This document shows, in pieces, positions 8 through 19,943 of a stretch of DNA of 24,080 nucleotides. Under the pieces are notes generated by a model. The model was not told the origin of the DNA and did not search any database. It saw only the letters and a program-made list of their open reading frames with translations. Position 1 is the stretch's first letter; each line of letters opens with the position of its first letter. Location: positions 1 to 24,080 of the IMG/VR virus record IMGVR_UViG_3300035698_019481, one strand, 5' to 3'. The position numbers and the translations under genes were made by a program. The stretch comes from a virus.

Positions 8-1330
8 ATGATTAAAACCATGCCCCATAATACCGATGCTGAAATGGCTGTACTTGGATCGTGTTTATTGTCTGAAAATTCGATTGATGAGGCTATGGGG
101 CATTTATTGCCGGAGGATTTTTACCATGAAAAGCATGGATATTTATTTAAACAAATAATTGAACTGAATGGTAAGCGTAAATCTGTTGATATTCTGACCA
201 TTTCACCTTTTATCGAAAAATACGAAAACATTACGCAGTACTATTTAACCGAACTGGTTGAGCGAATACCTTCTACTGAAAACGTGGGTGATTATATCAG
301 GATAGTTAAAAACAATTCCAATTTAAGGCGCTTAATAACTGTGTTTCATAAAACAACGGAAGAGGCGTTTAGTGGTACGGGCGATTCAGAGCAGGTAGTT
401 GAGACGATTGAAAATGAATTATTTCACATGCAAAAAAACGAATCAGAAATAGAGGATTTGAGCCAACTGACATATAGCGCCATTGAGCAAATGGAAATTA
501 TTCATCAAACAGAATCAGGCATAATTGGTGTGCCAACAGGGTATAGTCTTTTGGATGCCTTACTTTCAGGATTAAACAGAACTGATTTAATTATTTTGGC
601 AGCACCGCCTAGTCATGGAAAAACAGCCTTTGCGCTGAATATTGCTAAAAATGCTGCGCTAAGTGGCTTTCCGGTTGGTGTGTTTTCTTATGAAATGGGA
701 TCTATGCAATTAGTAAATCGGATTTTATGCAGCCATGCGAAAGTTGATGCACACAAGGCCAGAATTGGAAAATTAAAAGACGAGGATTTTACTCGATTGA
801 TCCACGTGTCGAGTGAGGTTGCAGGATTGCCAATTTACATCGAGGACACAGCAGGAAAAACAATTGAGGCGTTGCGTAGCAGTGCTCGTAAGATGATTAG
901 AAAACAAGGCGTTAAGTTAATTGTTGTGGATTATTTGCAGCTTGTTAGGACAAATCACAGGCATGAGAGTAAAAATATTCAGGTGGCCGAAATATCAGGT
1001 ATGTTAAAAACAATTGCAAAAGATTTTGATGTTTCTGTGTTGTGCTTATCTCAATTAAGTCGTGAGGTTTACAGAACAGGGCGCAGACCAACTATGGCTG
1101 ATTTGCGGGATAGTGGTATGATTGAGGCTGATGCAGATGTGATAATGTTTATTTACAGGCCAAGCAAAAACGGTGATAAAGTCAATCCAGGCGATGAAAA
1201 TTTGGCTGAAATTATAATCGAAAAGCATCGAAAAGGGCCAACAGGTACAGTAAATTTAAGGTTTGATGAGGCAACGCTTAATTTTCAAAATTTAGATACT
1301 GTCCACGATCCTCGTGGGCGAATGTTTTGA
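8..1330 (+). CDS. dnaB: Replicative DNA helicase, DnaB family
   Basis: A hexameric ATP-driven helicase that unwinds the fork for phage DNA replication in the cytoplasm. The 440-residue length fits the family (about 450). An N-terminal DnaB domain (residues about 5-105) begins with HNTDAEMAVLG, the usual opening. The RecA-like motor follows from about residue 172: Walker A APPSHGKT (199-206), Walker B LIVVDYLQL with D308, a downstream LSQLSREV stretch, and DLRDSGMIEADAD, the family's conserved motif before the arginine-finger region. The usual Walker A is RPSMGKT-like; here the variable residue before GKT is His. The start at 8 has no visible upstream context because the window begins there; ATG at 20 (MPHNTDAE) is a fair alternative. 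It heads a run of small early genes. Family assignment is near certain. Confidence 0.95.
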   Translation: MIKTMPHNTDAEMAVLGSCLLSENSIDEAMGHLLPEDFYHEKHGYLFKQIIELNGKRKSVDILTISPFIEKYENITQYYLTELVERIPSTENVGDYIRIVKNNSNLRRLITVFHKTTEEAFSGTGDSEQVVETIENELFHMQKNESEIEDLSQLTYSAIEQMEIIHQTESGIIGVPTGYSLLDALLSGLNRTDLIILAAPPSHGKTAFALNIAKNAALSGFPVGVFSYEMGSMQLVNRILCSHAKVDAHKARIGKLKDEDFTRLIHVSSEVAGLPIYIEDTAGKTIEALRSSARKMIRKQGVKLIVVDYLQLVRTNHRHESKNIQVAEISGMLKTIAKDFDVSVLCLSQLSREVYRTGRRPTMADLRDSGMIEADADVIMFIYRPSKNGDKVNPGDENLAEIIIEKHRKGPTGTVNLRFDEATLNFQNLDTVHDPRGRMF

Positions 1331-2443: not shown

Positions 2444-2701
2444 ATGACAAGAAAAGAAAAACAGGAAATAACGACGTCCAGGGTGGAACAATTAAGTGAC
2501 TATCTGGCTTTTGAAATGGAAAATCTTTACAAAGAGAATCATAACGTGGCTCAAGCACTTGGACATGCCGAAATGCGGGTAAGGGAAGCGAGCGAGAAAA
2601 ACCCATCCAGTAAATCAGTGTACGATCAGGCGAAAGACGGAGCAATTAAATTGTTCAACAAACACGTTGAATCCCAACACAGGGAGCTTACTCATGCCTA
2701 A
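2444..2701 (+). CDS. Hypothetical helical protein
   Basis: An 85-residue protein preceded by AAAGGAGTG, a strong ribosome binding site about eight bases before the ATG. It is polar and predicted helical throughout, with segments such as VEQLSDYLAFEMENLYKE and QALGHAEMRVREASEK. No domain is recognised. Its last 8 bases overlap the start of the HTH gene at 2694, so the two are likely translationally coupled. That coupling to a putative regulator raises the possibility of a partner or antitoxin-like role, but no toxin motif is visible. Treat as an early-region phage protein of unknown function. Confidence 0.78.
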   Translation: MTRKEKQEITTSRVEQLSDYLAFEMENLYKENHNVAQALGHAEMRVREASEKNPSSKSVYDQAKDGAIKLFNKHVESQHRELTHA

Positions 2702-3119
2702 ATCTAAAGATCGGTATTGGGACCAGCAGCGAGAGAAAGCAGACCGATTGTACAATAAACGTAAACCCGTGAAAGATGTATGCCCTCTTTGTGGCCATAC
2801 GATGCAGGAGCCAATAAACGGGAAATCCACGGTTAAGATTGAATTCCCTAATAATTCCCGGATCGTATTTGGAGATTTGAACGATATAGTGAAGTATAAA
2901 CAGCTCCGTCAATCGCTCGGACTTTCGCAAGTCGAGTTTGGGCGATTACTCGGATTCGGAAGTCCACGGGTTCGAGTGAGTGAACTGGAAAATGGCAAGC
3001 AGAAAGGATCGCCGCAATTACAACGGTTCGTGGCGTTCCTGAATTATCTAGTCGAGAACGGCGAAAAAGATCGGGTTCTTGACTGGTGGAATTTAAAAAA
3101 GGAGAAATACCATGTATAG
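2694..3119 (+). CDS. XRE-type helix-turn-helix regulator with CxxC knuckle
   Basis: A 141-residue protein. The N-terminal part is very basic (KSKDRYWDQQREKADRLYNK) and contains one CPLCG knuckle at about residues 31-35; a second CxxC is missing, so any zinc site would be incomplete or shared between subunits. Residues about 70-125 form a Cro/C1-type HTH: KQLRQSLGLSQVEFGRLLG, then a recognition-helix region PRVRVSELENGK. This layout resembles MqsA/HigA-like regulators. The ATG at 2694 is chosen over an upstream ATG at 2667 because GGGAG sits 8 bases before it and the upstream extension lies inside the preceding gene. It lies 600 bases upstream of a promoter carrying repeated boxes (3675-3735) and is the natural candidate repressor; that link is inference. 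Confidence 0.85.
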   Translation: MPKSKDRYWDQQREKADRLYNKRKPVKDVCPLCGHTMQEPINGKSTVKIEFPNNSRIVFGDLNDIVKYKQLRQSLGLSQVEFGRLLGFGSPRVRVSELENGKQKGSPQLQRFVAFLNYLVENGEKDRVLDWWNLKKEKYHV

Positions 3120-3336
3120 TGAAAATGTAATCTTCATGGACGGTGAGTTCATAGAACTTTCCGCAAAAGGGACATCATTCATTTCAATCGCCTTAGTAAA
3201 GGCGAATGGCGAATCATATTCAGCAATTAATGCTGATTATGATTCGAAAAAATGCACTGAATGGGTACGTGAAAACGTTCTCGTTCCGTTATATGTTGTA
3301 ACGGTTCACGGGGATGCAAGTAAATCATTTTACTGA
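3112..3336 (+). CDS. DEDDh exonuclease, N-terminal part (split gene)
   Basis: A 74-residue frame overlapping the HTH gene by 8 bases, with AAAGGAG at 3099-3105 upstream of the ATG. It starts with FMDGEFIELS, which matches exonuclease motif I (Asp-x-Glu) of RNase-T-like DEDDh 3'-5' exonucleases, and continues with SIALVKANGESYSAI and WVRENVLVPL, typical of the Rv2179c-like exoribonuclease group (PF16473). The frame stops at 3334, and the remaining motifs continue in the +1 frame from about 3313. Taken alone this part cannot be catalytic. Either the gene is frameshifted (a GGGG run at 3310-3313 is a likely spot), or a programmed +1 slip makes the full enzyme, or two subunits assemble. See the following entry. 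Confidence 0.7.
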   Translation: MYSENVIFMDGEFIELSAKGTSFISIALVKANGESYSAINADYDSKKCTEWVRENVLVPLYVVTVHGDASKSFY

Positions 3337-3673
3337 AATGACTTTCCATGAAACTTATGGTAAGTCCGAAAAACAAATTGCAAAAGAAATTATAGGGTTC
3401 ATTGGCGACAATAAACCCTATTTAATTGCAGATGTCAACCAGTTTGATTGGATGGGTATATGTGGATTATTTGGCGTTTGGAATGTTCCGTTCTTTTATA
3501 TCCCCATTGATTTTGCTTCAATTTTGTGGAGTAATGGGATTGATCCAGACGCCAACAGGGAAGAGTTGGCAAAATCAATGGGGATTGATATTTCTAATTT
3601 TAAAAAACACAATGCTCTTGATGATACAAGAGTTCTCAAGGCGTTATATGAAAAAATGGAGGAAAAGAACTAA
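3314..3673 (+). CDS. DEDDh exonuclease, C-terminal part (split gene)
   Basis: A 119-residue frame that completes the nuclease begun at 3112. It carries YLIADVNQFDWMG, consistent with exonuclease motif II with its catalytic Asp, and KKHNALDDTRVLKALY, the H-x4-D motif III that defines the DEDDh group. The two frames together give the normal order of motifs and a total length of about 185 residues, as expected for Rv2179c-like exoribonucleases. The ATG at 3314 lacks a ribosome binding site and lies inside the preceding frame, so it is probably not a true independent start. Removing one G from 3310-3313 fuses the two parts. The likely role is RNA or single-stranded DNA 3'-end trimming in the early region. 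Confidence 0.72.
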   Translation: MQVNHFTEMTFHETYGKSEKQIAKEIIGFIGDNKPYLIADVNQFDWMGICGLFGVWNVPFFYIPIDFASILWSNGIDPDANREELAKSMGIDISNFKKHNALDDTRVLKALYEKMEEKN

Positions 3674-3674
3674 A

Positions 3675-3735
3675 ATGATAAATATGATATGAAATGATAA
3701 TAACTGTTGACATTAAACTAATTATTTCATATCAT
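3675..3735 (+). promoter_or_regulatory. Operator-like cluster of ATGATA boxes around a promoter
   Basis: Three direct copies of ATGATA begin at 3675, 3684 and 3694, spaced 9 and 10 bases apart, close to one helical turn. A fourth copy in reverse (TATCAT) at 3730-3735 coincides with the -10 box. A perfect 12-bp inverted repeat, ATGATATGAAAT (3684-3695) and ATTTCATATCAT (3724-3735), flanks the -35 box. This arrangement suggests a repressor or activator that binds as multimers and could cover or loop the promoter. The nearby XRE protein (2694-3119) is a candidate ligand; there is no direct evidence for that. Confidence 0.55.
3707..3735 (+). promoter_or_regulatory. Strong sigma70-type promoter
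   Basis: TTGACA at 3707-3712 is a perfect -35 hexamer. It is followed by exactly 17 bases and TATCAT at 3730-3735, a good -10 hexamer (five of six to TATAAT). The predicted start is near 3742. No protein start follows for almost 200 bases; instead the sequence folds into strong stems and ends in a terminator (3872-3915), so the primary product is probably a small RNA, possibly with read-through into the gene at 3938. Confidence 0.75.
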
Positions 3736-3741
3736 TAACCA

Positions 3742-3917
3742 GACCTAATGAGGTGGTTATGGACAAAACAAGAACAATAATCTAAATGGTTCAAAGGTTT
3801 CGTCTCCTGGCAGACTGCGAAACCAAACAGCACCCATAATCACCTCTACTTTTAAACGACAATACACAAAACGGCCTGAAACCGGAGTTCAAATGAACTT
3901 GGGCAGGCCGCTTTTTG
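3742..3917 (+). ncRNA. Candidate phage small RNA, about 175 nt
   Basis: The stretch between a strong promoter (3707-3735) and a Rho-independent terminator (3872-3915) has no gene. Just after the predicted start, GAGGTGGTTATGG (3750-3762) pairs with CCATAATCACCTC (3834-3846), 13 bp with one G-U pair. It encloses an A-rich single strand (3763-3795) and an inner hairpin GGTTTCG/CGAAACC (3796-3802 with 3818-3824), extended by TCT/AGA. A single-stranded linker (3847-3871) leads to the terminator. Own promoter, compact fold and own terminator are the three hallmarks of an independent sRNA. Size and the closed stem with open interior recall 6S RNA, but no conserved 6S sequence is recognised. A leader/attenuator for the downstream genes is the main alternative. 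Confidence 0.6.
3872..3915 (+). terminator. Rho-independent terminator
   Basis: CGGCCTG (3872-3878) pairs with CAGGCCG (3904-3910), followed by CTTTTT. Inside, CC/GG (3882-3883 with 3901-3902) and AGTTC/GAACT (3886-3890 with 3895-3899) extend the hairpin. An apparent ATG at 3893 lies within this hairpin and is therefore not taken as a gene start. Confidence 0.75.
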
Positions 3918-3937
3918 CGTTTATAGGAATATATGAA

Positions 3938-4345
3938 ATGAATTGGCGAATAAGACATAAAAAACAAACCTCCTACGATCCTCGGCTGGATGATGTGCAG
4001 GAGAAAAAAGATGAACTTCTTGATCCTAAGGATGGAAAGTTTGATCCGGAGTTAAACGAGCAGGAAAGAAAAGAACCTGAAATATCTATCCCGCAAATAC
4101 CATTTTACCGACAACCTGGTTTTAAACGTAGCATTGGTTTTTTGTTCCTTGGTGCTGGTCAATTGGCTGGTGGGGCTATTGGAATAACGTTACAAGGCAT
4201 CGGTGGGCTTATTGGCGTTATTGGCCTCGGTGGGGCAATGAAAAAAAGCACACCAAATACAGACGGTCAAAAAGGATTGTATTATCACATCACTGAATTT
4301 TTAAAAATATTATTTACCTACCTAACAAAAAGGAGAAACAAGTAA
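3938..4345 (+). CDS. Membrane-associated protein with Gly-rich hydrophobic hairpin
   Basis: A 135-residue protein. ATG 3938 has AGGAA (3924-3928) upstream; an earlier ATG at 3893 would place the start inside a terminator hairpin and is rejected. Residues about 1-65 are charged and probably cytoplasmic (DPRLDDVQEKKDELLDP). Residues about 75-110 are hydrophobic and very Gly-rich (GFLFLGAGQLAGGAIGI, then GIGGLIGVIGLGGA), long enough for a helical hairpin or one long membrane segment. The tail is basic (TKRRNK). Glycine-zipper segments occur in holin-like and membrane-lesion proteins, but no family is recognised. Its stop overlaps the next start (TAATG), so it heads an operon that runs to 5943. 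Confidence 0.7.
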   Translation: MNWRIRHKKQTSYDPRLDDVQEKKDELLDPKDGKFDPELNEQERKEPEISIPQIPFYRQPGFKRSIGFLFLGAGQLAGGAIGITLQGIGGLIGVIGLGGAMKKSTPNTDGQKGLYYHITEFLKILFTYLTKRRNK

Positions 4346-5988: not shown

Positions 5989-6375
5989 ATGAGACAGAGC
6001 AGATTAACAGATAACATGATTTGGGAAGCGTATGAAAACCAAAAAGATACCCATACGCAAGAGGACATTGCGAGGCAATTAGGTATTAGTCAGTCAGCGT
6101 TATCGCAACGATTGAAAAATATGCAGCGCAAGTCTGGTTTTGATCTTAAAATAAAAGAATACGCCAGAAAGAAAGCAATATCTGTTATGGAGGATTTAAG
6201 AAAGCAATCTTCCTCTGGAAAAACCGAAGCATCTAAATTGATTTTGGAATTGGCAGACATTTATACTCAAAAGAAACAGGTTGACGTAAACGCTGAAATC
6301 AAGAACAAAATTGATTCAATGAAAAAAGACGCAGAAGAAATTGTCGAGAGAATCCAAAGTGAAGAAATTAGTTGA
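5989..6375 (+). CDS. terS: Terminase small subunit (probable)
   Basis: A 128-residue protein directly upstream of, and overlapping, the large terminase gene. It has an N-terminal helix-turn-helix (residues about 20-45: TQEDIARQLGISQSALSQ), the DNA-recognition element of small terminases, followed by long charged helices that would form the oligomerisation core (residues about 50-125). Length fits the family (about 130-180). Role: binds pac/cos DNA and loads the packaging motor. The ribosome binding site is weak. The short intergenic gap upstream contains an AGGTC-T-GACCT palindrome (5944-5954) and A/T-rich sequence. Assignment rests on HTH plus gene order. Confidence 0.8.
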   Translation: MRQSRLTDNMIWEAYENQKDTHTQEDIARQLGISQSALSQRLKNMQRKSGFDLKIKEYARKKAISVMEDLRKQSSSGKTEASKLILELADIYTQKKQVDVNAEIKNKIDSMKKDAEEIVERIQSEEIS

Positions 6376-6388
6376 GATTATAATTATC

Positions 6389-7996
6389 ATGTCGATGTTC
6401 AGGTTAATGATACAGCCGGAAATTGCTGTTGCTAAAATGGAAAAAGCGGAAGCGGTTAGGTTCTTACAGGCTGTTCAGCTTGATCCGTTGCGGTTTTGTT
6501 GTCCGAATGGTGCACAGGAAAGGTACATAAAGACTGTTGCTTTGTCCACAGAGAATACAAATGTCCCCGTGACCCTTTGTACTTTTGGGAATGGTGTTGG
6601 CAAAACTACTGCAACAATACATATATTACTAAATCTTATCTATGGCCCACAAAATGGCTGGTTTGATTATCCTATCTTTAACTCTTTTCCATACCCTAAA
6701 AATATCTGGTACTGTTCTACCGCATCGGCGCTAAAAGAAACAATACATCCAATGTTTGAGGCTTTAATTAAAAAAGAGTTTAATGTTGGCCGTGAATATG
6801 GACAAAGCAAGGATGGAAAATCGATCATTTCCACCATGAGATTCCCTGATAATTGGAATTTGTTGTTTAAAACTTTCGACCAGGACGCAGGAACTTATGA
6901 GTCTGCAAATGTTGGAGTTATGGTTTATGATGAACCAGCACCAGGGGACAAGTGGGATGCTGGAAAATCACGTCGTAGGATGGGTTGTGTCACGTTATTA
7001 CCGATGACTCCACTTGATTGTCCTCCATACATTATCGATGAAGTTAAAAATATGGTCAATAAAGGTCGTTCCGGTTACAGTCATGTAAAGGCGAGCGTTT
7101 ACGAAGCCTGTCAAGAGCGTGGGGTACGGGGCCACCTTCCGGCTGATGTTATTGATGATATGGTTGCAGATTACGACGATGAACAGAGAGCAGCAAGAAT
7201 ATTTGGTGAGTTTATGTATTTCTCCCGGATGATATACCCATCACTGGATGCTGAAACACATTTCGTAGAACCTTCTGATTATCCTATCCCGTTACATTCT
7301 AAAATCATTCAAATAGTTGATCCTCACGATTCCCGACCATCCGCTTCAATTTGGATAGCAAAAGCGCCAAATGGCCGGAGAATTATATTTGATGAATCTC
7401 CCGTGAATAAAAGCACAGACTATTGGAACATGAAATCAGGTCTTGATAATGACGATGAGATCAAGGGATGGAGTGAGGTGGAAGAGAAACAAGTAGCTGA
7501 TGAACTATACCCAGCACATTCAAAGCCGATGCGTATTTTAGATAAATATTTTGGATGGCAAACACGGGGTGGTAAGACATTCGCTCAGTCATATATTGAG
7601 GCCGGAATACGGATTAAAAAGGATTTTGTGTTTATCAGCTCATACGATGCGCCCGGCAAAGAGGCAGAGATTGAGTTTGGACACAAAGAAGTGCGTCGGT
7701 TATTAAAACCGATGGAAGATGGAAAGCCAGGTTTGGTAATTTGGAAGAATTGTACGCATACATGGAGTGGGTTAACTCATTATATCAGGCGTAAACTAAC
7801 CGGAAAAACCGCCGACGATAAAGCTGCATCTGATGGTGTGATCGTTGAGAAGTTCAAAGATTACCCAGATGTGGTTAGATATGGTGTGTGTGACGACATA
7901 GCGGTAAATGTACCCAAAGAAGAGACAACCAGAGAACAAAAAATGTGGGCTAACATCAGAAGTGAAAAACGAAAAACGGGACCATTATCATCATGA
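6389..7996 (+). CDS. terL: Terminase large subunit (packaging ATPase/nuclease)
   Basis: The motor that pumps DNA into the procapsid and cuts the concatemer. With the ATG at 6389 it has 535 residues. Walker A GNGVGKT lies at residues 67-73 and Walker B VMVYDEP at 177-183, with the expected Asp-Glu pair. A C-terminal RNase-H-like nuclease begins with IQIVDPHD (about 308-314), whose Asp is the usual first metal ligand; a later acidic site lies in GVCDDIAV near the end. The start is uncertain: the frame stays open upstream to TTG 6341 and GTG 6359, and no good ribosome binding site precedes any choice, so coupling to terS translation is likely. It overlaps the portal gene by ATGA. Confidence 0.93.
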   Translation: MSMFRLMIQPEIAVAKMEKAEAVRFLQAVQLDPLRFCCPNGAQERYIKTVALSTENTNVPVTLCTFGNGVGKTTATIHILLNLIYGPQNGWFDYPIFNSFPYPKNIWYCSTASALKETIHPMFEALIKKEFNVGREYGQSKDGKSIISTMRFPDNWNLLFKTFDQDAGTYESANVGVMVYDEPAPGDKWDAGKSRRRMGCVTLLPMTPLDCPPYIIDEVKNMVNKGRSGYSHVKASVYEACQERGVRGHLPADVIDDMVADYDDEQRAARIFGEFMYFSRMIYPSLDAETHFVEPSDYPIPLHSKIIQIVDPHDSRPSASIWIAKAPNGRRIIFDESPVNKSTDYWNMKSGLDNDDEIKGWSEVEEKQVADELYPAHSKPMRILDKYFGWQTRGGKTFAQSYIEAGIRIKKDFVFISSYDAPGKEAEIEFGHKEVRRLLKPMEDGKPGLVIWKNCTHTWSGLTHYIRRKLTGKTADDKAASDGVIVEKFKDYPDVVRYGVCDDIAVNVPKEETTREQKMWANIRSEKRKTGPLSS

Positions 7997-9993
7997 GTAC
8001 AGATCAGACCAAATCAGGCGAAGCGACTACAGAAGAAGGTGTAACAGAGGACGAACAAAAACTCTGGAACCAGGTACTGAATAAATTCAAATTCGGCGCA
8101 AAGAATATCGAAATTAGAAAACTTCCGCAGATGTGGGAGAAGTTCGAACGATATTACGGTAATGATTATTGGTATGGATCATCTAGGCCGGTCCATCTTA
8201 ACCGGTCAAGCTCGAACGATCTATTTGAGTTTGTAGAGGTCACGGGCCCGATGGTAACTGCTCGGCCACCAATGCCGGATGTTATCGCTGTTCCTCCAAT
8301 AGAGCGTGTTCTTGGATTAGAGGATGCACTACAAAGTGAGGATCTCGTTGAGGCAGAAAAAGCCAAACAAGCAAAGGATGATTATTACCGAAGGCTGTCT
8401 GAATGGTCTAACCAACTGCAAAAAGAGTTGGTGAACACCTTTGAAGATACGAACATGGGTGAGAAATCGGAGATACTCAACAGGGAATTTTCAGTCAAAG
8501 GAACTGGAATTATAAACTCTGAATTCAATAAAAACTCGAAAACAAAAATAGTTAACTCTTTGGTTGATAACCTAGTGGTTATTCCAGACCCAACAAAGGC
8601 AAGTATAGCAGATTGCCGGGATAGTTGGTTTATCATTGCAAGTTACATACTTGCGTCAGAGATTAAAAAGACATTAGGTGTTTCTGTTGATCCAGAAGGT
8701 GATTTTAATGCAGATGGATCGTTTACAAAGCGTTCTACTCTACAAGAGGGAATACAAAAAGCACTGTCAGGAGAGGATTCAAAGGATGGATATTGCTTTG
8801 TTATTAAAATGTATATGGCAAGCGGTGAAGAGGTAGAGTATGATTTAAGTGTGGCAGATGAAACGGGACAATACAAGAAAGACGAAGAGGGGAAAGTAAT
8901 AACAGAAAAGGCGAACAAGGCCAAATATCCAAATGGCCGAATAGTTACCATCATCAAAAACTACAAGGATCGTATTGTTAAAGACGAACCTTGTCAATAC
9001 GAAGACTACTGGCCCTATTTTGAAGTTGCTAATATGCGAAGGGCTAAAGATTTTTGGGGAACGTCTGACGGTAAGAACATGGAGCAAACCACGCTTGACA
9101 GGCTGCAAATTCTGGCGAATGTTACAGATGCCTGTAAGTTGATGGGTAATCCTCAATGGGTTAAAACGCCAGGATTTGAGGAAGAGATAAGGAACGAGGG
9201 GGGCGCTGTATATACAGCTCCAACGACAGAAAGCATTAAAGCGTTAGTTGGACCGCCAATTCCAGCATATATTCAACAGCACCTACAATACCTCGATGAT
9301 GATCGGGATAAAAAGTCTGGTGTTAATGATGCCTTACGAGCGCAAAGCAATGCCGGTGACTCTGGCGTAAAGACTCAAGCACTAATGGCCCAGGCAACAG
9401 GTCGATTGAATCCAAGAGTAAGGGCGTTTGTTGACCTTTACCGCAGATTGTACGAACATTGGGCCTACATCATCCGGAAATTTTATGACGACCCTATCCT
9501 TCAAAAGGAGGAAGATGAGGAAGGCAAAGCAGTATATACGGTATTCAACCCGAAAGAATTTGAGGATGTTAAAATCCGAATTAAGATTAATTCTTTGTCA
9601 ATTATGCCGTTCGATGTATTTCAGGAGTTTGAGGAAGCAACTATACTGTTTGATAAAGGACTCCTTTCTCCCGAACAATACATCGAGTCTGCCCCGACAT
9701 TAAGACACAAACAACGTGCAAAAGATTTCGTTGCTGAACGACAGGAGGCACAAGATCGAGAGCAAATGGAAGCGGAAGCACTGGAACAGTTCAGGCAATT
9801 AGGAGAACAGATGTCGGAGGTTGTAGAGGTACAGGACGGTAAAGGATCAGAGGACGAGGACCAAATATTTGAAATAATGCTGCAGCTCGTCCAGCAAGTC
9901 CCAGCACTGATACAAACGCCTGAATTTCAGGGACTTAACGAAAGAACTAAAAAGGCGCTGGTTTCTGGCCTTGCGCTTGGACTAGGTGTTTAG
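7993..9993 (+). CDS. Portal protein
   Basis: A 666-residue protein that by position and length is the dodecameric portal through which DNA enters the head. The N-terminal part (WEKFERYYGNDYW, then SSNDLFEFVEVTGPMVTARPP) and the central region AMARQA-like stretch GVKTQALMAQATGRLNPRVR, followed by a long helical stem, are typical of podovirus/siphovirus portals. The C-terminal 100 residues are Glu/Gln-rich and predicted coiled-coil (EQMEAEALEQFRQLGEQM), as in portals with a barrel or crown extension. Start ATGA overlaps the terminase stop. Length is somewhat above the usual 450-600, consistent with an extended crown. Confidence 0.9.
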   Translation: MSTDQTKSGEATTEEGVTEDEQKLWNQVLNKFKFGAKNIEIRKLPQMWEKFERYYGNDYWYGSSRPVHLNRSSSNDLFEFVEVTGPMVTARPPMPDVIAVPPIERVLGLEDALQSEDLVEAEKAKQAKDDYYRRLSEWSNQLQKELVNTFEDTNMGEKSEILNREFSVKGTGIINSEFNKNSKTKIVNSLVDNLVVIPDPTKASIADCRDSWFIIASYILASEIKKTLGVSVDPEGDFNADGSFTKRSTLQEGIQKALSGEDSKDGYCFVIKMYMASGEEVEYDLSVADETGQYKKDEEGKVITEKANKAKYPNGRIVTIIKNYKDRIVKDEPCQYEDYWPYFEVANMRRAKDFWGTSDGKNMEQTTLDRLQILANVTDACKLMGNPQWVKTPGFEEEIRNEGGAVYTAPTTESIKALVGPPIPAYIQQHLQYLDDDRDKKSGVNDALRAQSNAGDSGVKTQALMAQATGRLNPRVRAFVDLYRRLYEHWAYIIRKFYDDPILQKEEDEEGKAVYTVFNPKEFEDVKIRIKINSLSIMPFDVFQEFEEATILFDKGLLSPEQYIESAPTLRHKQRAKDFVAERQEAQDREQMEAEALEQFRQLGEQMSEVVEVQDGKGSEDEDQIFEIMLQLVQQVPALIQTPEFQGLNERTKKALVSGLALGLGV

Positions 9994-10051: not shown

Positions 10052-10124
10052 GCGCCTGTCGTCTAGCGGTTAGGACATCGGGTTTTCATCCCGGAAATCG
10101 TGGGTTCAAATCAAACCGGGCGTT
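10052..10124 (+). tRNA. tRNA-Glu (TTC), T-arm degenerate
   Basis: Acceptor GCGCCTG (10052-10058) pairs with CGGGCGT (10117-10123) through G-C pairs plus wobbles. The D-arm GTCT...GGAC (10061-10076) keeps the GG of the loop. The anticodon stem TCGGG/CCCGG (10078-10082 with 10090-10094) presents loop TTTTCAT with anticodon TTC at 10085-10087. The variable loop is normal. The T-loop TTCAAAT (10105-10111) is canonical, but the T-stem GTGGG/CAAAC has two central G-A oppositions instead of pairs. No CCA is encoded. The gene probably serves to supply Glu-UUC, or is decaying. Confidence 0.75.
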
Positions 10125-10153
10125 CAGGTCTTTTATTAAACGAAGGAGAAGAA

Positions 10154-10900: not shown

Positions 10901-10901
10901 C

Positions 10902-10960
10902 TGACGTGTAGCTCAACTGGCAGGAGCAGTGATTACCCTCTCTTGATTGGGAGGGCGTTA
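10902..10960 (+). other. tRNA-like 5' half plus hairpin
   Basis: Bases 10902-10928 read like the 5' half of a tRNA: a seven-base acceptor-like stretch, TA at positions 8-9, then D-stem GCTC/GAGC (10911-10914 with 10923-10926) around a loop with GG. After it the expected anticodon arm is replaced by a 7-bp hairpin CCCTCTC/GGGAGGG (10936-10942 with 10949-10955, loop TTGATT). No matching 3' acceptor or T-arm follows. It is most simply a tRNA remnant or tRNA-like decoy. The 3' arm GGGAGGG could act as a ribosome binding site for the frame that follows and would be hidden in the hairpin. Confidence 0.4.
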
Positions 10961-11078: not shown

Positions 11079-11143
11079 TGTACAGACAATTCTATGCTCG
11101 ATGGGTTGTACAAAAGCCCCTAGTGCTTGAGATGTTAAAATGA
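11078..11143 (+). CDS. Very small protein (21 aa)
   Basis: A 21-residue frame, MYRQFYARWVVQKPLVLEML plus one Lys, whose ATG overlaps the preceding stop (TAATG) and whose stop overlaps the start of the glycosyltransferase gene (ATGA at 11140-11143). The double overlap is the only evidence; it may act as a coupling leader for the membrane enzyme. No ribosome binding site is obvious. Confidence 0.35.
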   Translation: MYRQFYARWVVQKPLVLEMLK

Positions 11144-12453
11144 AGATAGCAATTATAATAATCCTGCTTTTGCTCGCAGGAGTTTATATTTATAGCTCGT
11201 CTGGATTTTATGATCACGATGAGTTTAGTCACTACGTATTTTTAAACAATATGCAGCCTGATTTCTATTTCAGCCCTTGGCACCGTGGCGGGTTTAAGCT
11301 GTTATATTTTCCGTTTAAAGATTTTAGCCTTGATGGGATACGGTTATTAAATGTCCTGCTAATAGGTGGCGCTTGCTTTCTATTATTCAAGATGGGTGAT
11401 AAGTATTTACCTATAATATTTTTAACGTTCCCACTTTTACAGGGAGTTGGTGGTAGATTCTATTCTGAGATCCCCGTAATGCTGCTAATGATTTTAGCAG
11501 TATTTATGTTATACAGGAATAAGCTGTTTTGGTTTGCTATAATCCTGGGATTTTTGCCAATGATTCGAAATGAAATGGTATTATTTTGGATTCCGGCAGC
11601 TTGGGTAATGCGTAAGGACTGGCAGTACATTCCAGCGATGTTTTTATTTCCGTTTATCTATTTCGTAAGTGCTTGGCTGTTTTACGGAGATCCCATGCAC
11701 TTGATTGATAATTATAGAATATTCTCTGAACGAAATCCACTGGTACATCCAAAGGGTCCAATGCTGCATTATCTCAAACACCTTATCTCCCTTGGCGGGA
11801 TTTGTGCTTTCTTTGTTGTTCCTGGTATGTTAAAAGCAAAGGGAAAAACTGAATGGTTCATGGCTATATGTATGGGCATGATCGTATTGCTGTTAAGCTT
11901 TGCGTATTGGGATAAGACCGGCTTTGGGCGAATAAGCGGCCCATCGAGGCACTTGTTAACTGTAGCCCCGTTTATGGCTTATTTTGCCTGGAAAAATATA
12001 ATAGAATATGACAAGACAACTAAAAATATAATTATAGGTATTGCTATATTAATGGTAATGGGTGTTCCGAAGTTCTCAATATCGGCAGAGCTTAATGGGA
12101 TAGGGTTGGCAAGTGAATGGATACAAAGACATGTTACAGAAGAATATTATGATAATTATTATTCTACACATAAAATAGGCTCACATCCAAAAGCACCGAG
12201 GTTTAGGAGTTGTAGTGTTTACACTTATCATACTTTTGTTAATTTAGTTCTTGATTCCCCGATTAAACGGGGAATAGAGAATATGAAGTCAGGCGAAATC
12301 CTGCTCTGGGAAAGTCACTATACCCGACGATACTTTCCGCTTGAGAGGTTCGCAAGCATTGAGAATGGGAAGTTAAAAGTTAAGGCTGGATGGGAACTGT
12401 TAAATGTTCAGCAGAATAGGGAAATATTAATCATCGTGGCAAAGAAGTTATGA
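11140..12453 (+). CDS. GT-C family membrane glycosyltransferase
   Basis: A 437-residue polytopic membrane protein with about 9-10 hydrophobic helices in residues 1-325 and a soluble C-terminal part. After the first helix (IAIIIILLLLAGVYIYS) comes YDHDEFSHY (about residues 24-32), an acidic motif in the first external loop that is the hallmark of GT-C enzymes, which transfer sugars from polyprenyl-phosphate donors on the outer face of the membrane. The long loop IRNEMVLFW and later GRISGPSRHLL are typical of ArnT/mannosyltransferase-like members. Its stop overlaps the next gene's ATG. Acceptor unknown: host envelope glycan or a phage protein. Complete; multi-pass glycosyltransferases are rare inside a virion gene cluster. 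Confidence 0.75.
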   Translation: MKIAIIIILLLLAGVYIYSSSGFYDHDEFSHYVFLNNMQPDFYFSPWHRGGFKLLYFPFKDFSLDGIRLLNVLLIGGACFLLFKMGDKYLPIIFLTFPLLQGVGGRFYSEIPVMLLMILAVFMLYRNKLFWFAIILGFLPMIRNEMVLFWIPAAWVMRKDWQYIPAMFLFPFIYFVSAWLFYGDPMHLIDNYRIFSERNPLVHPKGPMLHYLKHLISLGGICAFFVVPGMLKAKGKTEWFMAICMGMIVLLLSFAYWDKTGFGRISGPSRHLLTVAPFMAYFAWKNIIEYDKTTKNIIIGIAILMVMGVPKFSISAELNGIGLASEWIQRHVTEEYYDNYYSTHKIGSHPKAPRFRSCSVYTYHTFVNLVLDSPIKRGIENMKSGEILLWESHYTRRYFPLERFASIENGKLKVKAGWELLNVQQNREILIIVAKKL

Positions 12454-13709
12454 AATATTTAATACTTACATATATTGTGTTAATAGCAATAGCCGTTCCA
12501 TTTTGGACGGTTGACGATGCGTATATAAGCTGGTCTTATGCTCAAAACTTAGTCGATGGAAATGGTTTAGTGTTTAATGTAGGCGAACGAGTCGAAGGAT
12601 ATACTGGAATACTTTGGGTGTTCATAGCTGCTGGAATGCTTGCGTTAAAGTTGAATGTTCTAATCATTTCAAAGGCGTTAAGCTTGATTCTGTTAGGTAT
12701 TGGTGCCTGGCTATTGTACAGAATGATAGATAAAGAAATAAAATGGTATGCGGTATTATTATACTTGATGCCAATCCAATTTATACACGCTTATTCTGGA
12801 ATGGAAACAATACTGTTTGGTACGTTAATTATTTGGGCCTTTCACGATTATCACTTCAAGAAGTCTGGATATGTACCGTTAATCCTGTTATGCCTTGTCC
12901 GACCGGAAGGTATTGTGATTGCCGGTGCAATGGCTTTATTTTATGCAAAGCGTAAAGAATACAGTCAGTTACTTGTTGTATTTGTCACTACAATTATTTA
13001 CCTGGCTTTTAAGTATGCCTATTATGGCGCAATCCTCCCACAAAGCTACGCAATAAAAGAGAATGGAATCACAGCAATTGAGCTAATAGTACTTGGTGTT
13101 GTCTGGATTTATACAGCATGGAAACATAAAGATATTACAATTTATATATCGTTGATACTTGCTTTATTTTATGTGGGATATTACAAGGCAAATCTATTAA
13201 TGGGATATGCAGACAGGTTTTATGTTCCATTGTTAGGAATTGCTATATTTGCTGTATTTGAACTTACAAAAAAATACAGCAAGAGATTAAAGCCGTACTA
13301 CCTGGTCCTGGCTATACTATTCACAGGGACCCAGTTAAGAGTGAACATCGATTGGATGAAAGAATACAAGGTAACGATATCCAACCTGGAAGAGATTGGC
13401 AAGAGTTTAAAGGAATATAACAACGTAGTGGCCTGGGACATAGGAGCCACAAAGTTCTATTCTAAAGCGAATGTAATCGATATGGTAGGTTTGACAGACA
13501 AACAAATAGGCTCCGGAAAAGATGTCGTTAATTATGTTTACTCTAAAAAACCAGATGCGTTCGCACTGCCGAGTAAAAAGTCAGATGGAATTATGTATCA
13601 TAAGTACTGGTTGCCTGAACTGTTAAACGATCCCCGGTTTAAAGAGTACAAGCATATAAACACATTCAAAGGAATCAATAGGCACTATCATGTTTTTGGT
13701 AAAAATTAA
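12450..13709 (+). CDS. GT-C family membrane glycosyltransferase, AftB-like
   Basis: A 419-residue polytopic protein. After an N-terminal helix it has VDDAYISWSYAQNLVDG and then GLVFNVGERVEGYTGILW (about residues 21-60). The DDAYI...N...G.GL.FN.GE.VEGYT..LW signature is that of GT-C glycosyltransferases related to actinobacterial AftB and many uncharacterised bacterial enzymes. About nine further membrane helices follow, then a soluble C-terminal domain (about 320-419) with AWDIGATKFYS and IDMVGLTD, a segment also conserved in these enzymes. It is translated with the preceding gene (ATGA). The pair probably act sequentially on the same lipid-linked sugar pathway at the cytoplasmic membrane; substrate cannot be deduced. 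Confidence 0.8.
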   Translation: MKYLILTYIVLIAIAVPFWTVDDAYISWSYAQNLVDGNGLVFNVGERVEGYTGILWVFIAAGMLALKLNVLIISKALSLILLGIGAWLLYRMIDKEIKWYAVLLYLMPIQFIHAYSGMETILFGTLIIWAFHDYHFKKSGYVPLILLCLVRPEGIVIAGAMALFYAKRKEYSQLLVVFVTTIIYLAFKYAYYGAILPQSYAIKENGITAIELIVLGVVWIYTAWKHKDITIYISLILALFYVGYYKANLLMGYADRFYVPLLGIAIFAVFELTKKYSKRLKPYYLVLAILFTGTQLRVNIDWMKEYKVTISNLEEIGKSLKEYNNVVAWDIGATKFYSKANVIDMVGLTDKQIGSGKDVVNYVYSKKPDAFALPSKKSDGIMYHKYWLPELLNDPRFKEYKHINTFKGINRHYHVFGKN

Positions 13710-14258: not shown

Positions 14259-14440
14259 GCCCAAAACCAGTAGTCCGAGACGATTCAGGAAATATACAGA
14301 TAAATTTATCACAGGAAGATCATATAACATTGAAACAGATATTGAAATTTAACGCACTGGCCAACAGCCAGGACACACAGCTACACAGGCATTGCGTTTA
14401 TCTTCTGGACCGGTTGACCCCAAAAGGAGATGTTTTTTAA
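14255..14440 (+). CDS. Small hypothetical protein
   Basis: A 61-residue protein starting at GTG 14255, which overlaps the preceding stop (GTGA). It contains SGNIQINLSQEDHITLKQIL and QDTQLHRHCVYLLDRLTP, probably two helices after a short strand. It ends in TAATG overlap with the next gene and carries AAAAGGAG near its end, which would drive that next gene. Function unknown. Confidence 0.65.
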   Translation: MSPKPVVRDDSGNIQINLSQEDHITLKQILKFNALANSQDTQLHRHCVYLLDRLTPKGDVF

Positions 14441-16449: not shown

Positions 16450-16689
16450 ATGAACAGGCGAAACTTTCTTAAATCAGTAATTGCAGTTTCTGTTGTTCCG
16501 GTGGCATTCGTTAACAATAAGACATCATTAAGAGAAGTCACAATAAGCAAAGAATTTGCCGGGGATTCTTTTTGTGCTGGAAATATTATTTACATACAAG
16601 GATCAATTGGCGGCAAAAATAATGGCCGATACCAGATTTCTTCAATTGTTGATTCTAATATAGAATGTACAGGAGATTTTATAATATGA
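16450..16689 (+). CDS. Tat-signal protein with small beta domain
   Basis: A 79-residue protein starting directly after the previous stop, with GGGAAAGGG upstream. The first 22 residues, MNRRNFLKSVIAVSVVPVAF, match a twin-arginine leader (R-R-x-F-L-K followed by a mild hydrophobic core), so it should be exported folded. Residues about 31-77 (FCAGNIIYIQGSIGGKNNGR and YQISSIVDSNIECTGD) resemble a segment of the decoration-like protein at 19993 (residues about 148-188), implying a shared small beta domain. Stop overlaps the start of the next Tat-signal gene (ATGA). Confidence 0.65.
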   Translation: MNRRNFLKSVIAVSVVPVAFVNNKTSLREVTISKEFAGDSFCAGNIIYIQGSIGGKNNGRYQISSIVDSNIECTGDFII

Positions 16690-17168
16690 AACGTAGGGAT
16701 TTTTTAAAATCGGCGATTGCAGCTATGGCCGTTCCGACTGCGCTGGTGGCAGCTAAAAGCAATCAAGTTCATTACGATATAATGTCACATTTAAGTGCGG
16801 AGTTTGAAAAATACAGGACTAACAACGGAACTTCCCCCTCTTTAATTTTAATCGATAACAATTTTAGGGATGAATATATAAAAGCATGTGGCGGGAAGGG
16901 AGAGAGTGAGGATTTTGTAGGGAGTTGGTTTACTCATCATCACTTTCGTTCGTCTTGGGTTGAATTTGTTGACTCGAAAGATATGTATGGATGGATTTCC
17001 AGGATGCTCAATGAAAAAGAAAAAGATGAATACTGTCAATTGCAGTTAATTAAAGTAATGAAAAAATGCTGTGCGAATATGGAGAAAAATTCCAAGGAAA
17101 ACTTTAATAAAGAATTTTTCATAGTTTCACCAAAAATGTTAGATATTTATCAAACGCTATTGGCATAA
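16686..17168 (+). CDS. Tat-signal protein, function unknown
   Basis: A 160-residue protein. ATG 16686 overlaps the preceding stop; an upstream frame extension to 16665 is not needed. The leader MKRRDFLKSAIAAMAVPTAL is a good twin-arginine signal and is nearly the same as that of the upstream gene (shared M-x-RR-x-FLKS-x-IA...VP-x-A). The mature region begins AAKSNQVHYDIMSHLSAEFE and contains THHHFRSSWVEFVDSKDMYG and a Cys-rich helix VMKKCCANMEK. His and Cys content could allow metal binding. No family is recognised. It is the last gene before a strong terminator. Confidence 0.68.
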   Translation: MKRRDFLKSAIAAMAVPTALVAAKSNQVHYDIMSHLSAEFEKYRTNNGTSPSLILIDNNFRDEYIKACGGKGESEDFVGSWFTHHHFRSSWVEFVDSKDMYGWISRMLNEKEKDEYCQLQLIKVMKKCCANMEKNSKENFNKEFFIVSPKMLDIYQTLLA

Positions 17169-17277: not shown

Positions 17278-17337
17278 AAAGCCCGGTTAACCAGAAAGTA
17301 CTTCATGTACCCTCCTGGTTGATCGGGCTTTTTTTAT
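17278..17337 (+). terminator. Strong compound Rho-independent terminator
   Basis: AAAGCCCG (17278-17285) pairs with CGGGCTTT (17324-17331); AACCAG/CTGGTT (17289-17294 with 17315-17320) and GTAC/GTAC (17298-17301 with 17307-17310) extend the stem, and a T-run follows. A duplicate of the left arm, AAAGCCCGG at 17258-17266, lies 12 bases upstream and can pair with an earlier CGGG (17250-17253) or replace the true left arm, so an attenuator is possible. It separates the accessory block from the capsid genes. Confidence 0.8.
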
Positions 17338-18932: not shown

Positions 18933-19943
18933 ATGGCTGATCCAACATTAACTAAAATTTTAAATGTCATGAATGTGGTCACTCGTGACCATCTTTTGCC
19001 TGGCATGAAAGATCAAATCAAAAACAACAGCTCGTACCTTGCTACGAGATTGCTCAAGAAAGCGGAACAGGTATCTGGTGGAAATCAGATCGAGCAGTTA
19101 CTTGAGTACGGTAATGATAGACCGAACTGGATGGGGGAATGGGACAAAGTTGAGTATAAGGTCAAAGACCTTGCGACTGCTGCGATGTTTCCTTGGGCAG
19201 TCCTGAACGATACCATTACTTTTTCCGAAATGGACTTAAAAATCAAGAATGTTGGGAAAGAACGGATTTTTTCTTTGGGTAAAATTGGCTCGAAAAACCT
19301 GGTTAAAACATTTAAACGAGGTTATGGCGATATGCTGTTTAAAAACGCTGCCAAGGCAACGAACGAACCTTTCAACCTGTACGACATCGTAGTGAATTAC
19401 AATGCTTCACTAGCTGGTATTGATCCATCTGACTCTAAATATTCGTGGTGGGCCGCTCGAAAATTGGTACTGTCCGGCGTTACTTATTCACAGCTAAAAG
19501 ACCCTGACGATGCAAGTGGTTACTACCTTGAAAACATCATGGCACAGATGTACGATTCTCTCTGCTCTGACAATGAACATCCCACCATTATTGTAACAAC
19601 GAAAAAAACATGGCGACTGTACGAACAGTTGTTGCGAAATCAGAACCGTTATACCAATAACTTTAAGGTTAATGGTTCTTATGAAATCCTGATGTTCGGT
19701 CAAGCCGAAGTTGTTGCAGATGATAAGTGTCCAACCGGCCACATGTATTTTCTGAATGACAATTACCTGTATTTTCGCTATCACCCAGATTATAATTTTG
19801 TATTGAGTGATTTTGAAAAAGTTACCACAGGTGAAAAAGCCTACGCCGCTGAATTGAATTGGGTTGGAGCATTGACTTGCTCGAACCGTGGATACCAAGG
19901 CGTTGTAACTGGACTCACAGAAAATCCATTGACAATTCTTTAA
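18933..19943 (+). CDS. Major capsid protein
   Basis: A 336-residue protein with AAAAGGAATT upstream, 14 bases after the scaffold gene. Length, position and composition fit an HK97-fold major head protein: a helical N-arm (MADPTLTKILNVMNVVTRDH), a domain with FSEMDLKIKNVGKERIFSLG, a spine-like region with DPDDASGYYLENIMAQMYD, and a C-terminal A-domain with TTKKTWRLYEQLLRNQNRY and VNGSYEILMFGQAEVV, followed by DDKCPTGHMYFLNDNYLYFR, a strand pair seen in this fold. The 'IVTTKKTWRLYEQLLRNQ...Y.ILMFG.AEVVADDKCP...YFLN' layout is shared by many podovirus/siphovirus capsid families. No delta-domain is obvious, consistent with a separate scaffold. Confidence 0.88.
   Translation: MADPTLTKILNVMNVVTRDHLLPGMKDQIKNNSSYLATRLLKKAEQVSGGNQIEQLLEYGNDRPNWMGEWDKVEYKVKDLATAAMFPWAVLNDTITFSEMDLKIKNVGKERIFSLGKIGSKNLVKTFKRGYGDMLFKNAAKATNEPFNLYDIVVNYNASLAGIDPSDSKYSWWAARKLVLSGVTYSQLKDPDDASGYYLENIMAQMYDSLCSDNEHPTIIVTTKKTWRLYEQLLRNQNRYTNNFKVNGSYEILMFGQAEVVADDKCPTGHMYFLNDNYLYFRYHPDYNFVLSDFEKVTTGEKAYAAELNWVGALTCSNRGYQGVVTGLTENPLTIL

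Follow-up and report, generated by a model that had tools for sequence, protein, structure and literature searches.

A promoter- and terminator-bounded RNA unit ahead of the packaging genes of a phage fragment: a possible terminated operon leader

At the point where replication-type genes give way to packaging and structural genes in a 24,080-base virus fragment from IMG/VR, a sigma-70-type promoter is followed by a folded RNA body and an intrinsic terminator. We propose, with a probability of a little under one half, that a phage middle or late operon takes its promoter and 5′ leader from this unit, and that transcription of the unit is terminated and also yields a small RNA. Support for the leader comes from the promoter and terminator matches, the significant fold, the gene order, the inverted repeat that overlaps the promoter, and the lack of another near-consensus plus-strand promoter before position 14414. 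The window analysed is the entire record, and its relevant features are collected in Table 1.

In the proposed mechanism, RNA polymerase would initiate near position 3742, transcribe a folded leader of approximately 175 nt and mostly halt at the terminator, which would release a small stable RNA. In the right phage state, when an antiterminator has been loaded near the start site or read-through is partial, transcription would continue into the membrane-protein, terminase, portal and capsid genes. From the sequence we infer transcription of the unit, its read-through and a controlling factor, together with whatever part the inverted repeat or the regulator gene at 2697–3119 may play.

Table 1. 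Features of the RNA unit and of the genes around it (positions in the window)
Feature	Position	Strand	Basis
DnaB helicase	8–1330	+	gene calls and family searches
XRE-type (HTH) regulator, MqsA-like resemblance	2697–3119	+	gene calls and family searches
Phage RNase H/RNase AS-type exoribonuclease (phrog_2259), two frames	3112–3336, 3314–3673	+	gene calls and family searches
Inverted repeat, 15-nt arms 3684–3698/3721–3735, 14/15 matched, 12 perfect	3684–3735	none	sequence
Sigma-70-type promoter, TTGACA-17-TATCAT, 11/12	3707–3735	+	consensus match
Predicted terminated transcript, start inferred about 7 bases 3′ of the −10 element	3742–3918	+	fold z −5.9
Closing stem 3750–3762/3834–3846, 13 pairs including one G-U	3750–3846	+	folding
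Putative 8-codon frame MDKTRTII after Shine-Dalgarno GAGGTGG, both within the closing stem	3759–3785	+	read from sequence
Inner hairpin 3796–3803/3817–3824, 8 pairs, loop with UCUCCUGGCAG	3796–3824	+	folding
Intrinsic terminator, hairpin 3872–3910 (−22.9 kcal/mol) and T-tract CTTTTTGC	3872–3918	+	folding, terminator scan
First gene 3′ of the terminator, glycine-rich membrane-type protein	3938–4345	+	gene calls
Packaging genes: terminase small subunit, large subunit, portal	5989–6375, from about 6386, 7993–9993	+	family searches
Major capsid	18933–19943	+	gene calls and family searches

Gene order around the unit

The clearest indication of what the unit is comes from its place among the genes. 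Gene content changes at this point from the DnaB helicase, the HTH regulator and the exoribonuclease to membrane, terminase, portal and capsid proteins, all encoded on the plus strand, with the genes for small membrane-type proteins occupying the interval between the exoribonuclease gene and the terminase genes. The unit had originally been assigned to a phage early region; its location is more precisely the boundary between replication-type and packaging or structural genes, and not simply early. The gene at 3938 begins approximately 20 bases 3′ of the T-tract, where there is no space for a promoter, and no promoter of its own was seen; the encoded protein has no match in the family searches. 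Farther downstream, a sigma-70 scan, to which phage-specific promoters are invisible, gave no site of at least 10/12 on the plus strand between 3735 and 14414.

Because of this gene order we read the unit as a late-operon leader that is terminated and also releases an RNA of approximately 175 nt, and the order favours such a leader over a free-standing sRNA gene. The discrete promoter-to-terminator RNA of the original prediction stands as a natural reading of the sequence, whereas its interpretation as an independent sRNA gene is the less favoured part. Several points speak against a leader. No alternative antiterminator fold is predicted, a transcript arriving from upstream could also feed the operon, and no gene for a Q-family antiterminator was matched (PF06530, PF03589) in this record, which is a fragment. 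PF06323, also of the Q family, likewise had no match in the fragment, in a search run without a positive control.

Several other features were observed among the downstream genes. The portal gene is followed by a tRNA-Glu (TTC) gene at 10052–10125, and a tRNA-like sequence at 10901–10960 (GTAGCTCAACTGGCAGGAGCAG...CCCTCTCTTGATTGGGAGGG), which ARAGORN does not call, has a D-arm and an anticodon arm and lacks a T-arm. Two adjoining genes at 11140–13709 encode multi-pass membrane proteins that are glycosyltransferase-like in appearance, the first without a Pfam match. Another adjoining pair, at 16450–17168, starts with Tat-type signals (RRNFLK and RRDFLK), which is unusual for a phage.

Promoter, folded body and terminator

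The hexamers TTGACA (3707–3712) and TATCAT (3730–3735) are separated by 17 bases, as first described, and this is the sole site of 11/12 quality that a sigma-70 scan identifies in the record. By itself such a promoter is not rare in 24 kb, as approximately 1.0 is expected by chance per 24 kb on both strands; when the 262-nt intergenic region is considered on this single strand, the expectation falls to 0.01 (about 1%). Use of sigma-70 at this promoter by the host is assumed. An inverted repeat that was absent from the original prediction flanks the −35 element and overlaps the −10 element. To judge from its sequence, it is likely to be a protein site, or else part of a palindrome-rich stretch, and an operator or an antiterminator-loading site are possible functions.

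The RNA spanning 3742–3922 (approximately 181 nt) has a predicted folding energy of −59 kcal/mol, compared with −35.6 ± 4.0 kcal/mol for dinucleotide shuffles (z −5.9). The body without its terminator (z −4.2) and the terminator alone (z −4.4) are each significant, and in both cases none of 1000 dinucleotide shuffles was equally good. On the minus strand the body reaches z −1.5, which is not significant, and this difference between strands speaks for an RNA made from the plus strand. In absolute terms the energy of the body is ordinary for the record, falling in the top 6–9% of 123-nt windows. The body folds as a three-way junction, one strand of which is A-rich and 29 nt long. Its 13-bp closing stem was recovered as proposed; the inner hairpin is also present, with 8 pairs and not the 7 given before, and taken alone it is not significant (z −1.6). 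A comparable long stem, closed around inner hairpins and an A-rich strand, lies between small genes at 1793–1885 (z −2.7); that site has no promoter of quality, and its minus strand is also terminator-like.

A closing stem with an open interior, bounded by its own promoter and terminator, recalls the bacterial 6S RNA (RF00013), with which the unit shares its size class, and the original prediction had considered an RNA of this kind, which would mimic an open promoter and sequester host RNA polymerase. The Rfam covariance model for 6S RNA is nevertheless silent in the record even at an E value of 10, although it finds matches in eight control genomes, and the three-way junction, with its very unequal strands, is unlike an extended rod that opens into a symmetric central bubble. 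Rfam gave no relevant match in the record, not even at a loose threshold. In view of the silent model and the different shape, a 6S-like polymerase mimic is extremely improbable.

The 5′ arm of the closing stem (GAGGTGGTTATGG) carries a good ribosome site and the start codon of an 8-codon frame, whose TAA is directly followed, in frame, by the ATG of a 17-codon frame (3786–3839). The earlier view that the unit holds no open reading frame of merit is true as regards size, but a good Shine-Dalgarno sequence and an ATG are hidden in the stem. Such an arrangement would suit a translation-coupled, attenuation-like leader, in which ribosome entry or stalling decides the fate of the transcript: GAGGTGG and the ATG at 3759 fall exactly within the 5′ arm, and the second in-frame ATG comes directly after the stop codon. 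However, folding predicts no competing pairing of the leader with the terminator, any stem containing GAGGTG would look alike, and the frames are too short for a coding test. We consider this form of control quite improbable. Alternative antiterminator or riboswitch-like folds are likewise not predicted, and the body and the terminator fold independently.

The Rho-independent terminator proposed at the end of the unit was borne out by folding. It is the second strongest on the plus strand of the record, after that at 17278–17331, and it is also terminator-like when read on the minus strand. The very strong terminator elsewhere (17278–17335, −31 kcal/mol) precedes the capsid-region genes and is itself preceded by a second small hairpin.

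These same features could describe a free-standing gene for a trans-acting sRNA, whose product of approximately 175 nt would have as its target a protein or mRNAs of the host or the phage, while the operon is fed from elsewhere. The unit has a promoter and a strong terminator of its own and a compact, significant fold that is better on the plus than on the minus strand, and the exposed C-rich loop UCUCCU is complementary to AGGAGA Shine-Dalgarno sites. RNAs of this type are known from phages (PMC12197685). OOP and PreS of lambda, VpdS of VP882 and sar of P22 (PMC12197685) are also short and phage-encoded, and an intergenic promoter and terminator unit would fit among them; many of them are antisense or Hfq-bound, whereas the present unit has no known target, Hfq-type site or homology. 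At the start sites of the phage itself, pairing by the loops is no better than that of shuffled loops, and these sites lend no support to a role in mRNA pairing. There is also no other promoter in sight for the downstream gene and no homologue that would indicate conservation. On balance we regard a free-standing sRNA gene as unlikely, although it deserves serious consideration.

Palindrome-rich DNA and the search for relatives

The unit adjoins DNA of unusual structure. Positions 3001–3921 form the most structured stretch of the record (mean z −2.5 versus −0.35), and 3105–3930 folds at z −8.4. Compared with synonymous shuffles, the coding part of the exoribonuclease gene folds at z −5.0 on the plus strand and −5.8 on the minus strand, whereas six relatives from other phages range from −1.8 to +0.7. 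Short perfect hairpins number 8 in the gene (3112–3673), compared with an expectation of 1.4. Its coding sequence includes a perfect 17-nt inverted repeat (3500–3516/3569–3585), of which the first arm encodes the conserved IPxD motif and the second a variable part. Since the excess is equal on both strands, palindromes arising at the DNA level, for example by template switching, are suggested more strongly than is selection acting on an RNA. A frame change at approximately 3325–3330, within or close to a T run, also interrupts the gene; it may reflect an error in sequencing, and decay or a programmed shift would be indistinguishable from it here.

It follows from this neighbourhood that the stems might be by-products of palindrome-rich DNA (3112–3735), with no dedicated RNA and with a promoter and terminator that serve or end ordinary mRNAs. 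The strong excess of perfect hairpins in the adjoining gene, equal on both strands, and the placement of the promoter itself within an inverted repeat argue for such an origin. Against it, the body is structured mainly on the plus strand (z −4.2 versus −1.5), and it is bounded by a promoter and a terminator in the right order; we judge this explanation rather unlikely. Still less probable is that the unit forms the 3′ end of a structured region of approximately 800 nt (3112–3918) that takes in the hairpin-rich, frame-broken exoribonuclease gene, and whose transcript would be stable or would resist or control its own RNase, and of which the 175-nt RNA would be a separately made part.

The element is an orphan in the collections searched (phages, IMG/VR and GTDB genomes). 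By blastn it has no homologue among 50,697 phages, and no relatives of the locus were found through the terminase, the capsid, the first downstream protein or the exoribonuclease in phage, viral and genome collections. DNA patterns for the stems and the terminator gave chance matches only in IMG/VR and GTDB genomes. Individual candidates were rejected as homologues or matches. One (L010) is where a coding gene ends, with an ordinary terminator after it; those numbered L017–L024 do not match the element; others (L026–L028) lie inside a sugar-transferase-like gene, despite a spacing equal to that of the element; and one (L025) is a long perfect MITE-like palindrome (6792–6901) at the contig end of a Bacteroidales MAG.

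Comparison with phage lambda

The preferred reading, a terminated operon leader, finds its nearest likeness in the PR′-6S-tR′ region of phage lambda. Examined with the same tools, lambda has TTGACT-17-TAAATT after gene Q, a leader RNA named ‘6S’ (z −3.15 over its generally accepted extent of 194 nt) that ends in a terminator, and then the lysis and late genes. In both systems a sigma-70 promoter with a 17-bp spacer precedes a folded leader; the two leaders are similar in length and close with an intrinsic terminator, and each unit is placed between regulatory or replication genes and the late genes, which lie on the same strand. The lambda-type layout, in which a promoter, a leader of approximately 150–200 nt and an intrinsic terminator stand directly upstream of a late operon, is present here. 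The two differ in that no sequence similarity was seen, no Q homologue was recognised in this phage, and it has no known QBE or pause element. Moreover, the first gene in this phage follows within approximately 20 bases, and read-through is predicted.

The lambda Q protein loads at a DNA site, at a promoter-proximal pause, and the polymerase can then ignore terminators (PMC7171158). Our comparison is that the present unit may work like the lambda leader; we do not assign it to the Q-dependent kind, since the searches for Q families matched nothing in the record. Should the unit prove to be a free sRNA gene instead, it would add one more orphan phage RNA. If the leader assignment is correct, it would represent a lambda-like late switch in a phage lineage without close relatives or a recognisable Q protein, and would suggest that an unknown antitermination factor, or else a device made of RNA only, is at work.
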